This document shows positions 1 to 3,693 of a DNA stretch of 33,333 nucleotides, in pieces. A program made the position numbers and the translations under genes. How positions within the stretch are numbered: position 1 is the first letter of the stretch; each line of letters starts with the position of its first letter. The notes under the pieces are model-generated. The model was not told where the DNA came from, did no database searches, and saw only the letters and a program-made list of their open reading frames with translations. This DNA is from a virus. The stretch lies in the IMG/VR virus record IMGVR_UViG_3300021138_000105, positions 1 to 33,333 of that record; one strand, given 5' to 3'.

Positions 1-99
1 GTTCTGTTGACCCATACCCATTTGACTTTGACCCATCATAGGGTTCTGTTGACCCATACCCATTTGACTTTGACCCATCATAGGGTTCTGTTGACCCAT
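1..99 (-). repeat. 42-bp in-frame tandem repeat (14-residue Met/Gly/Gln unit)
   Basis: Two identical 42-base copies occupy 1-42 and 43-84, and a third begins at 85 and matches for 15 bases before diverging. On the minus strand each unit encodes MGQQNPMMGQSQMG. More copies may lie left of the window. The period is a multiple of three, so copy number can change without breaking the frame. Confidence 0.95.
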
Positions 100-1584
100 T
101 GACATTGCACCACCTGTATTTTTACCAGATTCTTGAGCACCACCATGGGAACCGCCAACAGTATCTTTTAACCAACTTGCTGCATTTTGACCAGCACCCC
201 CAGCTCCCCATATAGCTTGAGATCCAAATCCAACATGCATTCTTGAACCATCGTTACCCATATATCCTTCGCCCGCACCAATACCAGTTGCTCCTGCTGA
301 TGAAGCAGCCATAACAAACTTTTTGAATATTGGTAGATCTTCGGGGTTTTTCGGTGTTAATTTCTTATCGCCAGAATAGATATCTAAGTCTGCAGCATTA
401 CCATTATCATGCCTGGTTGATCCTGTTCTTTGGCCACCAGAACCTTCTGCTGGTTGACCTCCAGATTTAACTCTCACAGACACACCAGCTTCTTTCGCAG
501 CTCGCTCAAGAACAGAAAGCAATTGTTGGCTTATTGGTAATTTTCTGATAGAGGCTTCTCTCATCTGATCTTGGAAAACTTGACCACCATCAGACTTTAT
601 TGGTGTTTCTGTTTGTGAATTTTGACGCTCGCCACCTTGTTGTTGAGTAGTATCACTTTGTTGTGAATTGCCAGAACCTGAAGATGTAGATCCAGAAGCT
701 AAAGATGCGCCAGAAGTTGAATTGTTTTGTTGATTGTTTGGTGCTGTTTTTCCGCCATGTTTTGCATATTCTTTTAGCCAATCACTTTGGTACTGTGCTA
801 TTTTTTCCGGTGAGACGTCTTTGCTTTTTCCTTCAACATTTCCAGAAAACCAAGCAACAGGAACCTTTGAAACATCATTGTTTGCTTGTTTTAATATTCC
901 TGTTACATATTTGTCAGCCACTTTATCTTGAATTTCTGGCGGCGCATCTTTAGCTCTTGGATATTGTTTGATATCAACACCAGCCTCTTTTGCTCGTAAT
1001 TTCCACGTACTATCAATGAATTGATATGCACCAGATGCAGTAGAAGTATCATTTTGTGCGTTATATTTGCCACCAGATCCTTCTCGAGCTTTTATTGTAT
1101 CAAGAATTGGTTTGTTTTCACCGGAAAATGGTACTGCTGAACCTCCAGCGCCACTATCGACTCCAGGAGGTGATGAAGAATTTAATGTCAGCCCAGCACC
1201 TAAACCCGCAGCGGTTCCTAAAGCTGCACCAATTTTATCAGATAATGAATTGCTGCCACCATTATTGCCCAATCTTTCAGTATTGGACACTAATATTTTT
1301 AGCGTTTTCATTATATCATTTTGATTGGCTATAGACTGCTGTAATAAACTATTAGTGCTTTCTAGTTTTGTTGCAGTTTTATTCGATTTGTCTTCAATAT
1401 CATCAATGTTTGATTGTATGGATTTTATTTGATTCTGTTGTGATGAAAAATGACTTCCTAGATCTTTGCTTATAGATTTGACGGAGTTATTGTTCTCACT
1501 AGCAGTTTGTTTGAACTGACCCTTGATACTGTTTATAGATTGTGTTATTTTTGAAAAAAATGTTGATGGGTCAGCGTTTGTCAT
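1..1584 (-). CDS. Partial tail protein with lysozyme/SLT-like and M15 peptidase-like domains (tape-measure position)
   Basis: The reading frame opens at an ATG at 1584 on the minus strand and stays open for 528 codons to the window edge, so the C-terminus is missing. Residues about 8-100 are polar and heptad-like, probably coiled coil. Around residues 153-270 there is a lysozyme/transglycosylase-like domain: AREGSGGKY with a candidate catalytic Glu168, then SGAYQF (184-189). Residues about 345-475 look like a zinc peptidase of the M15 (D-Ala-D-Ala carboxypeptidase/endolysin) type: H392-x6-D399 in RHDNGNAADLD, and H450 in MHVGF. The end of the visible part is a Met/Gly/Gln repeat. It follows the gp26-like chaperone by two bases. 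Known: tape-measure proteins of many phages sit directly after their frameshifted chaperones and often carry wall hydrolases. Inferred: a tape measure or tail lysozyme that opens peptidoglycan during DNA entry. Domain calls are by motif only. Confidence 0.85.
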   Translation of the reverse strand, partial: MTNADPSTFFSKITQSINSIKGQFKQTASENNNSVKSISKDLGSHFSSQQNQIKSIQSNIDDIEDKSNKTATKLESTNSLLQQSIANQNDIMKTLKILVSNTERLGNNGGSNSLSDKIGAALGTAAGLGAGLTLNSSSPPGVDSGAGGSAVPFSGENKPILDTIKAREGSGGKYNAQNDTSTASGAYQFIDSTWKLRAKEAGVDIKQYPRAKDAPPEIQDKVADKYVTGILKQANNDVSKVPVAWFSGNVEGKSKDVSPEKIAQYQSDWLKEYAKHGGKTAPNNQQNNSTSGASLASGSTSSGSGNSQQSDTTQQQGGERQNSQTETPIKSDGGQVFQDQMREASIRKLPISQQLLSVLERAAKEAGVSVRVKSGGQPAEGSGGQRTGSTRHDNGNAADLDIYSGDKKLTPKNPEDLPIFKKFVMAASSAGATGIGAGEGYMGNDGSRMHVGFGSQAIWGAGGAGQNAASWLKDTVGGSHGGAQESGKNTGGAMSMGQQNPMMGQSQMGMGQQNPMMGQSQMGMGQQN

Positions 1585-1586
1585 TG

Positions 1587-1772
1587 TTAGCCTTTATTCC
1601 TTTGTCTTTCGTCTTCTAATTTTTTTAGATGATTTAGGAGAAATTCCACATATATGTCTCGTTCAAAAGGAATTAAATTTTCAATCTCAGTAATTGAATA
1701 TTTATGGTGCTGAACCATAGAAAAGTTTGTTGAATAGTAATTTTCTAAAGAGTTATGATTCAGCGCCAGGAA
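1587..1772 (-). CDS. gp51-like -1 frame extension of the gp26-like chaperone (probable frameshift product)
   Basis: On the minus strand the -1 frame relative to the gp26-like gene is open from the T-run at 1772-1778 to a TAA at 1589-1587. After slippage it adds 61 residues beginning FLALNHNSLENYY and including QHHKYSITEIE and PFERDIYVEFL, a well-ordered charged, amphipathic segment. The fused protein would have 295 residues if it starts at 2473. An alternative is an independent 43-residue protein starting at the ATG at 1718 (MVQHHKYS). The preceding 18 codons are also free of stops and look protein-like, which favours a fusion. Known: lambda G/GT and many other tail-assembly chaperones use exactly this arrangement. 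Inferred: this is the 'T' part that recruits tube subunits to the tape measure. The assignment to gp51 rests on position and resemblance, not on an alignment. Confidence 0.7.
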   Translation of the reverse strand, partial: FLALNHNSLENYYSTNFSMVQHHKYSITEIENLIPFERDIYVEFLLNHLKKLEDERQRNKG

Positions 1773-2473
1773 AAAAAATCATTTAACGAGCTCAAAACTA
1801 TTTCTCTATCATTATTGAAAGAGTTTTTGTATTTGATAACGTATTCTAATTTTGGTACACTCAATAGAAATTTCTGAATATTTTCGAATATTTTCAAATT
1901 TAAGTTCTCAACAAAATCATTGAGTTCTTTTCTGGAAATTTTTGATGTTTCAAATATCTCATCACCATCATAAACCTTATCAATACAACGAAGAATCAAC
2001 TCAAACATATAATTATCAGTCAAACTCAGAAATTCTTTATCTTCATAAAGAGTAGCTGAAGGATAATTCATTAAAATGCCTGATTTTTCGCTAATTTTTA
2101 TATCATTGCTTACTTTTTCAGGAAATTTTACTTCAATTGAGTTCAAATCAATTTCAAAATCATAAATTTTATCATCTTCATAATCTTTATATGAAGTTTT
2201 TACAATATTGTTGACAGAAAATGATCTCAATTTTAGAAAAATATATTCTAGATCAAAAAGTGCAATTTTATCAACATTGAATTTAACATCCATACAACAA
2301 TTGTTGACAATTTGTTTAATTGCTGAAAGAATATCACCTTCATTACCACTTTCTCTTGCCATAAGCAAAAGTTTTTCTTCTTTAACCAAGAAAGGTCTAA
2401 ACTTTATATTTTTATTAAGAGAAGGTACTTTTATATTATAGATTGGCTGATCAATTTTAGGCAAATTTGACAT
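1760..2473 (-). CDS. 26: gp26-like baseplate hub assembly chaperone
   Basis: The N-terminal SNLPKIDQPIYNI followed by IKFRPFLVKEEKLLLMA is the signature of the T4 gp26-like hub/tail chaperone family. At 237 residues it is slightly longer than T4 gp26 as I recall it (about 208). An upstream in-frame ATG exists at 2485, but the ATG at 2473 has GGAG six bases before it, so I chose 2473. The zero frame ends DFFSWR and stops with TGA just after an 8-T run, where a -1 shift would lead into the gp51-like extension. It follows the tube-fold protein by 18 bases in the leftward operon and precedes the lysozyme/M15 protein. Inferred role: cytoplasmic chaperone acting on the tape measure or hub during baseplate assembly, not a virion part. 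Confidence 0.8.
   Translation of the reverse strand: MSNLPKIDQPIYNIKVPSLNKNIKFRPFLVKEEKLLLMARESGNEGDILSAIKQIVNNCCMDVKFNVDKIALFDLEYIFLKLRSFSVNNIVKTSYKDYEDDKIYDFEIDLNSIEVKFPEKVSNDIKISEKSGILMNYPSATLYEDKEFLSLTDNYMFELILRCIDKVYDGDEIFETSKISRKELNDFVENLNLKIFENIQKFLLSVPKLEYVIKYKNSFNNDREIVLSSLNDFFSWR
1772..1778 (-). promoter_or_regulatory. Candidate -1 ribosomal frameshift slippery heptamer
   Basis: On the minus strand the gp26-like frame reads GAT TTT TTT TCC, so T TTT TTT forms an X XXY YYZ heptamer in the correct phase. The zero frame stops four codons later (TGA at 1762-1760), while the -1 frame runs on for 61 codons. I did not identify a clear downstream stem-loop or pseudoknot by eye. Confidence 0.65.
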
Positions 2474-2491
2474 AATTAACTCCATAATTAA

Positions 2492-3130
2492 TTAGAAAAT
2501 CGGAATAGGATTTTCAAGAACAGAACTTGTAATTGTATAATCAGTATATGCAATAGAAACATTAATTTTAACTAAATTGTCATCATCTGCCCAAGCCAAT
2601 GGAACTTCTCTCAATGAAGTAGGAAATGCTTCATATAGATTTATTCTTTGGACTGCATTTCCTTCTTGGTCATACATTACAATTTGCATAATTGTTGAAA
2701 AATTTGATTTGTATTCTGAAAGATAAGATGGAAACCTATTAATTTCTCCAAAACCAGAACTTTCTGTACCATTAAATTCATATATGGCTCTTACCCAATT
2801 ATACCAATATTGCCAAATACTTGCTTCATTGTCAGATAAAATAGACATCTGTACTTCAGTAAATTGTGCATTATATGGCTGTTTCTGTGTTGGTCCTGCA
2901 CCATAACGATTGACATCTGCGCTGGCTAAATTGATACCAGGTACTTTAACTTGATCAATTCTGAAAGTTTGTAATGTTGACAGCTCATTCAATTGAGATA
3001 AATTGCCACCACTGTTTAACATGTTGCCGAACATTATCGCAGGAGGTTGTATGAACACCTGAAAAGAATTAGACTTTAGATAACCATAATCTTCTAAATT
3101 GGTTTTGAAATTGTTTATGTTAAATGGCAT
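2492..3130 (-). CDS. Tail-tube-fold protein (gp19/gp54-like, probable tube initiator)
   Basis: The protein of 212 residues starts MPFNINNFKT. A longer frame opens at 3187, but that part overlaps the upstream gene and looks like read-through, so the ATG at 3130 is preferred. The segment FRIDQVKVPGINLAS and the later QKQPYNAQFTEV/ WQYWYNWV match the order of strands and helix in myoviral tube proteins. The C-terminal half (EAFPTSLREVPLAWADDDN, then INVSIAYTDY) closely parallels the end of T4 gp19 (a 'WPTN..ELQLDW' and 'LALDYW' pattern). Known: gp19 forms the tube and gp54 of similar fold starts it on the baseplate. With a gp48-like cap encoded nearby, a gp54-type initiator is my preferred reading, but a true tube subunit is not excluded. 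Confidence 0.72.
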   Translation of the reverse strand: MPFNINNFKTNLEDYGYLKSNSFQVFIQPPAIMFGNMLNSGGNLSQLNELSTLQTFRIDQVKVPGINLASADVNRYGAGPTQKQPYNAQFTEVQMSILSDNEASIWQYWYNWVRAIYEFNGTESSGFGEINRFPSYLSEYKSNFSTIMQIVMYDQEGNAVQRINLYEAFPTSLREVPLAWADDDNLVKINVSIAYTDYTITSSVLENPIPIF

Positions 3131-3138
3131 AATTGGAC

Positions 3139-3693
3139 CTAATAAGGAGGTGAACCAGCATATTTTGCGTTGGGATTGATTTTCCACTTTTGCAATGGTA
3201 ACATAACAACTTTAGACCAATCAGAAGGCGAGATATAATAAAATTGTGTTTTGACATGACCGTAAAGATATCGTTTAATACAACTTTCATATCCAGAAAA
3301 TTGGCTATATTTTTTCAGCAATTGATATGATACAACCAATTTGGTGCTATCATCATATTTATTATTATTTGCCAAAGTTGTAAGAGAATTTAACAAAGAA
3401 GCTCTTGCATTAGGTGGCAAATAATGTAAGTTCAAACCTATAAACCCGGAATTTTGAAATTCAATTGGTATCGTTAAAGGATACATATCAAAGAAAGGCA
3501 ATCTGTCTTTGTATTTTGCATCATAATAATACAAATACATTTTACCAATTTCCGGAGATGACATCTGTTTAAGAAGAGGTTTCTTTTTAGCGTTTTCTAC
3601 CTGATCTTTATACCAGGTCACAGAATCTTTTGATGCTCCTATTAAGTTTTTAGAAGCTTCGGTAAGATCATCTTGAAAATCAGATAGTGCCAT
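3139..3693 (-). CDS. Conserved T4-like myovirus protein, function uncertain (possible gp2-like)
   Basis: This 184-residue protein begins MALSDFQDDL with an amphipathic helix, then has IGKMYLYYYDAKYKDRLPFF, a MYPLTIPI strand, GFIGLNLHYLPP and a long helical section ending near SDWSKVVMLPLQKW. I recognise this pattern from T4-like cyanophage genomes, where a protein of this type lies beside the head-completion gene 4; some are annotated as DNA end protector gp2, but I cannot confirm that. Its ATG shares a base with the stop of the gp4-like gene (TAATG), and its stop lies 8 bases before the tube-fold start. The neighbourhood suggests a virion or head-tail joining role. There is no signal peptide or membrane segment. 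Confidence 0.75.
   Translation of the reverse strand: MALSDFQDDLTEASKNLIGASKDSVTWYKDQVENAKKKPLLKQMSSPEIGKMYLYYYDAKYKDRLPFFDMYPLTIPIEFQNSGFIGLNLHYLPPNARASLLNSLTTLANNNKYDDSTKLVVSYQLLKKYSQFSGYESCIKRYLYGHVKTQFYYISPSDWSKVVMLPLQKWKINPNAKYAGSPPY

Follow-up and report, generated by a model that had tools for sequence, protein, structure and literature searches.

A 2016 review describes G-T frameshifting as conserved in long-tailed phages 'except T4' (PMC5009743). The locus analysed here raises the question of whether a T4-like virus can make two forms of its tail assembly chaperone (TAC) from a single gene. It lies in a stretch of 33,333 nucleotides from an uncultivated virus (IMG/VR record IMGVR_UViG_3300021138_000105, positions 1 to 33,333), called the window in the following. 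The first-pass annotation had proposed a programmed -1 frameshift joining a gp26-like frame to a gp51-like one, by analogy with lambda G/GT, and both the frameshift and the analogy were supported on every comparative test. We consider it highly likely that this T4-like phage has a TAC gene of the lambda G/GT type here, from which short and long forms would arise by a -1 slip on a T-run with the aid of a hairpin; slippage is what we infer from the arrangement and conservation of the sequence.

Layout of the gp26-like locus

The features of the locus are given below, with the evidence for each in brackets.

1..1584, minus strand, running off the window: next gene downstream, probably tape measure or hub (position and coiled-coil-type Pfam matches)
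1587..1772, minus strand: -1-frame C-terminal extension (TAC-C, 'gp51'), 61 codons plus TAA (phrog_634, phrog_150, dN/dS, homologues)
1705..1768, minus strand: predicted RNA hairpin 3' of the heptamer, arms 1768-1756 and 1717-1705 (folding, nulls, pair counts)
1760..1762, minus strand: 0-frame stop TGA of the short form, within the 5' arm of the predicted hairpin (read directly)
1760..2473, minus strand: gene for the 237-aa short form (TAC-N) of the gp26-like tail assembly chaperone (PF12322, phrog_150, AlphaFold, TAC structures)
1772..1778, minus strand: slippery heptamer T_TTT_TTT in gp26 phase, within the 8-T run 1771-1778 (read directly)
2492..3187, minus strand: tail-tube-family gene, directly upstream of the chaperone (phrog_45 tail tube, 1.7e-25; Phage_TTP_2, 7.6e-08)

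The gp26-like gene starts with an ATG at 2473, six bases downstream of a GGAG (2483-2480). Its product matched PF12322 (T4_baseplate) at 4.4e-52 over positions 2-218 of the 219 in the profile, which is the full domain, and phrog_150 at 2.4e-57. On the minus strand the frame ends ...AAT GAT TTT TTT TCC TGG CGC TGA. The in-phase T TTT TTT that had been noticed near this end was found at 1772-1778, followed by three sense codons and then the stop. The -1 frame, described earlier as stop-free for 61 codons and ending just before the next gene, is indeed open from 1772 over that length; its stop (1589-1587) is located 2 nt before the ATG of the following gene at 1584.

The tail-tube-family gene upstream has a GTG start as listed, and its real start may be internal. 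The downstream gene is complete in a second contig of the same virus, L001 (3890-5902), where it encodes 670 aa. Inspected by eye, this protein has an N-terminal coiled coil followed by lysozyme-like and D-Ala-D-Ala-peptidase-like segments. Pfam and family searches with it found no tape measure family match in this virus, and it is possibly a tape measure protein with lytic domains. In HTVC008M, a gene located shortly downstream of the chaperone matches tape measure families.

The fold of the N-terminal domain was predicted with AlphaFold2 from 79 window and locus sequences, giving a gp26 model with a pLDDT of 92.5. Plain Foldseek of this model against the PDB returned nothing at E below 0.001, with the HK97 TAC entry 2ob9 ranked third. 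A second-look alignment placed 3fgx (Z 8.2), 2ob9 (Z 7.1) and 3klu (Z 6.9) at the top, the next row being at 3.8, and all three matches covered gp26 residues 1-96. The entry 2ob9 is titled HK97 tail assembly chaperone (HK97 gp13), and we take 3fgx and 3klu (YqbN) to be TAC homologues as well. Sequence searches of the PDB with gp26 and extension profiles gave chance matches only. As modelled, the N-domain is a TAC fold, which provides independent support for the comparison with lambda G/GT.

Conservation of the extension and of the slippery heptamer

The -1 frame had been judged protein-like from its letters, and this was borne out. The 61-aa extension matched phrog_634, 'baseplate hub assembly catalyst', at 7.7e-26, and also the C-terminal end of phrog_150 (positions 234-281). 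Its dN/dS was 0.12, compared to 0.09 for gp26 itself (22 independent pairs), and differences between pairs of relatives were distributed as 172/95/400 over codon positions 1/2/3. The extension is kept as a protein under strong purifying selection. Its predicted model was mediocre (pLDDT 76.6, pTM 0.53).

Alignment of gp26 homologues had been suggested as a check on conservation of the T-run and of the -1 frame. We gathered 136 loci with gp26 alone as query, ignoring the T-run, and dereplicated them at 80% identity to 117 homologues. The extension was found in 117/117, always in the -1 frame, and T_TTT_TTN in gp26 phase in 115/117, separated from the stop by 0 to 3 sense codons. The codon that precedes the two Phe codons differs (GAT, AGT, TCT, AAT, GCT), yet it always ends in T; the first Phe codon is always TTT, while TTC makes up a third of the Phe codons in these genes. 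Given the residues and the codon usage of the family, the log10 probability of a T at the preceding wobble position together with the first TTT is about -41, a figure that treats the sequences as independent, which they are not fully. This conservation exceeds what the protein alone would impose, and the heptamer conforms in phase to X_XXY_YYZ.

Candidate stimulators and alternative explanations

The sequences carrying the heptamer were divided into the clade of the window (45 sequences, stop 13-16 nt past the heptamer start) and a cyanophage-type clade (the other 70, stop at 7-10 nt). In the window, the 77 bases past the heptamer had a minimum free energy of -18.1 kcal/mol, whereas shuffled versions averaged -6.1 (z -5.0, 0/200 shuffles). 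The predicted stem starts 3 nt past the heptamer and its core 7 nt past it, and the gp26 stop codon is inside the stem. Across the clade of the window the mean z was -3.2, with 38/45 sequences below -2, compared to a mean of -0.2 and 3 sequences below -2 for an upstream control. Some sequences, L004 and L007, have the heptamer and no such hairpin. Since both arms of the hairpin encode conserved protein, the null was obtained by recoding the extension with synonymous codons. Natural sequences were more stable than recoded ones (mean z -2.3; 69% at p<=0.05). In the 9-bp core, 88% of cells were paired, compared to 77% under the synonymous null (maximum of 500: 80%), the pairing being due in part to the conserved protein sequence, as this 77% indicates. 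In an ungapped alignment we counted 12 double changes versus 4.3 after shuffling, and 88% of pairs were kept versus at most 48% when the alignment was slid by up to three columns. RNAalifold gave no consensus structure on the hairpin alignment, and the case for the hairpin is therefore built on the folding of single sequences, the null with synonymous codons and the counting of pairs.

No shared downstream structure was found in the cyanophage-type clade, where 44% of the sequences folded better than their synonymous recodings at p<=0.05. A Shine-Dalgarno-like AGGA, GGAG or GAGG was present upstream in 47/70 of these sequences, against 8% of control positions, at 8-11 nt and mostly 10-11 nt before the heptamer. 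The motif overlaps a conserved Glu-Gly pair, whose Glu is encoded by GAG in 39/48 cases there against 30% gene-wide. The RNA elements near the heptamer are non-random by these comparisons; the hairpin is a probable frameshift stimulator in the clade of the window and GAGG a likely one in the cyanophage-type clade. PMC5009743 discusses stem-loops and 5' Shine-Dalgarno sequences as stimulators. Neither a mention of hairpin or GAGG stimulators for T4-like TAC genes nor any earlier report of them in this gene family was found in the open papers. If both kinds are real, the natural variants could be used as they stand to measure how the ratio of short to long form is adjusted.

Three other explanations of the split frame were considered. 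The extension might be an independent small gene (gp51) that has a start codon of its own and is translated by reinitiation after the gp26 stop without any frameshift. Cyanophage records do annotate a separate gp51 starting just past gp26, and in the Vibrio phages D528 and K452 the gp26 stop overlaps a -1-frame ATG (TAATG), a good fit for coupled reinitiation. In the window, however, the extension frame has no ATG, GTG or TTG before an ATG at 1718, which falls inside the conserved part and for which no ribosome binding site was found. From the upstream stop through codon 14 past the heptamer, the -1 frame was devoid of ATG, GTG and TTG in 55/115 homologues, which leaves their first 14 extension codons without a start, and of ATG in 78/115. 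Since start codons are absent in so many homologues although this early stretch (HNSLENYY) is conserved, separate initiation is not the general route. The annotated gp51 starts moreover vary among relatives, a separate gene would leave the codon-level conservation of the heptamer unexplained, and the single-frame gp51 of T4 indicates that the extension works fused to an N-domain. We regard a separate gene as improbable.

Less probable still is transcriptional slippage, in which RNA polymerase would stutter on the T-run and the altered mRNA be read in one frame. Runs of A or T can cause such slippage and the window has 8 Ts, but about half of the homologues have T_TTT_TTC, with only 6 Ts, and the runs for which slippage has been described in bacteria have 9 (PMC5009743). 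It also requires no codon phase, hairpin or upstream GAGG, all of which are conserved, and on these grounds it was rejected. Finally, homopolymers are error-prone, and the first-pass annotation had itself allowed that the 8-T run might be a sequencing error; a sequencing or assembly fault would then have split one long gene that is really in a single frame. The same 8-T junction is repeated in two other contigs of this virus, L001, which is identical to the window at each of the 2,473 bases compared, and L002, and a relative at 80% identity (L003) likewise has 8 Ts. The same split recurs in 115 diverged sequences, which come from many projects and include isolates. Independent sequences thus carry it, and error was rejected as having next to no likelihood.

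According to the -1 slippage that we favour, most ribosomes would stay in the gp26-like frame as far as its stop at 1760, yielding the short form (TAC-N), the equivalent of T4 gp26. On T_TTT_TTT, with both the P and the A site occupied by tRNA-Phe, a minority would slip back by one base, aided by the hairpin starting 3-7 nt past the heptamer. The shifted ribosomes would then read on for 61 codons, and their product, the long form (TAC-NC), would be the equivalent of T4 gp51. If lambda is a guide, the tape measure protein may be coated by the N-domains, and tail tube subunits may be recruited by the extension of the long form, the rarer of the two.

Compared by layout, position and fold, the locus resembles lambda G/GT in the putative -1 slip with which its chaperone gene ends, its C-terminal extension, its TAC-like N-domain and its probable place between the tail tube and presumed tape measure genes. 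It differs in its heptamer, here T_TTT_TTT, and in the strong predicted hairpin beside the site. E. coli dnaX uses an upstream Shine-Dalgarno sequence and a downstream stem-loop together around its heptamer, whereas here the two candidate stimulators are found mainly in different clades. In dnaX the shift, at about 50%, leads to the shorter product, while here it would lead to the longer one. The TAC genes of Vandenendeviridae and Andersonviridae, compared by description, also have a -1 shift near the end of TAC-N and an extension open in every genome, but they belong to other phage families and have a conserved GTTTTT motif (PMC12846349).

T4 gp26/gp51 and other routes to two forms

Genes 26 and 51 of T4 are separate, as the first-pass annotation had stated, and lie on opposite strands. 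T4 gp26 (208 aa) matched PF12322 at 8.8e-64 and did not match phrog_634; T4 gp51 (249 aa) matched both PF12322 (3.9e-52) and phrog_634 (1.2e-23, residues 147-246). The predicted frameshift product of the window is made of the same two parts as gp51, a gp26-type domain and a phrog_634-type extension. When the extension was compared with T4 gp51 alone, by profile comparison of the 61-aa alignment, the similarity was modest (probability 56%, E 1.1e-4), and the PHROG matches of both were far stronger. Because gp26 and gp51 both match PF12322 and only gp51 matches phrog_634, we identify gp51 as the long form and gp26 as the short one. On these profile matches the two are paralogues, gp26 corresponding to the unshifted product and gp51 to the long product encoded in one frame. 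The idea of a gp26/gp51 chaperone fusion thus stands insofar as the short and long forms match T4 gp26 and gp51; the notion of two unrelated chaperones does not, as gp51 already contains the gp26-type domain. It also follows that the 'gp51' annotated in many cyanophage genomes covers no more than the C-terminal part of the long form, the tail end of the putative frameshift product.

The first-pass annotation had held that homologues without the T-run and with a separately started gp51 would speak against a frameshift. Such homologues occur only outside the group of the window, in T4, RB49-type, Acinetobacter and Klebsiella relatives, and the long gene there is a duplicate. All two-gene Straboviridae examined (T4, JSE/RB49 type, Konradin, KP15) have one short and one long gene. 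In the tree, which is unrooted, their short and long proteins cluster together and are set apart from those of all single-gene phages, and within this cluster the long proteins form a single group (98/97). This fits one duplication in the T4 lineage. By these comparisons, the T4 lineage appears to have replaced a lambda G/GT-type TAC gene by gene duplication, the role of the recoded gene being taken over by the duplicated pair. In Klebsiella phage KP15 (L144 2501-3795) the long and short genes are in tandem on one strand, while those of T4 point in opposite directions; a rearrangement of the pair followed the duplication. The Aeromonas phages 65.2, Aswh_1 and phiWae14 have a single gene with T_TTT_TTC and a -1 extension.

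The first-pass annotation had left open whether a frameshifted product had been described for T4-like phages, and it has. Vladimirov, Gautam and Davidson (Virology 2022, 566:9-15) are cited in a passage of PMC10885494 for some T4-like phages in which a short gene plus a long fused one take the place of frameshifting, and in a passage of PMC12846349 for poly-T signals of frameshifting in the TAC genes of T4-like phages. As described in those passages, the arrangement shares with ours the gene family, the poly-T slippery site and the short and long forms, T4-type phages using two genes. The present virus, a new uncultivated member, very probably makes a two-form chaperone from one gene and is a well-supported new example of this reported arrangement, to which the hairpin and GAGG candidates are added. 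The abstract of the 2022 study is said to state that frameshifting is conserved in several T4-like groups and that T4 uses genes 26 and 51.

Two Vibrio phages, D528 and K452 (2205-2230 in both L027 and L145), have no heptamer, and their TAATG puts an extension-frame ATG on the gp26 stop; this suggests coupled reinitiation in place of frameshifting. In Salmonella phage Se_AO1, of the Ackermannviridae (L026 2290-2480), an extension-like -1 frame is open (phrog_634 match 0.001), with neither a canonical heptamer (the sequence there reads GAG ATT TTC ATT TAA), an early start codon nor a TAATG. Because the Ackermannviridae and Vibrio D528/K452 keep the extension without it, the heptamer appears not to be the only route to its expression. 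T4-like phages may express their TACs in a natural series of ways that all solve one stoichiometry problem and are interchangeable: heptamer plus hairpin in the clade of the window, heptamer plus upstream GAGG in the cyanophage-type clade, TAATG replacing the heptamer in D528/K452 and duplication in the T4 lineage, both stimulator types being new to the gene family. We give this broader scheme an even chance.

Some of the loci gathered (L114-L138) are within metagenome-assembled genomes (MAGs) of many unrelated phyla, among them Bacteroidota, Chloroflexota and archaea, and are most probably phage contigs binned with their hosts or by mistake. In L139 (CP070695.1, a Heimdallarchaeota MAG chromosome), a T4-like phage fragment with tail tube and gp26 is separated by an N gap from the rest, which is unrelated to it and presumably archaeal; the record looks like a scaffolding chimaera.
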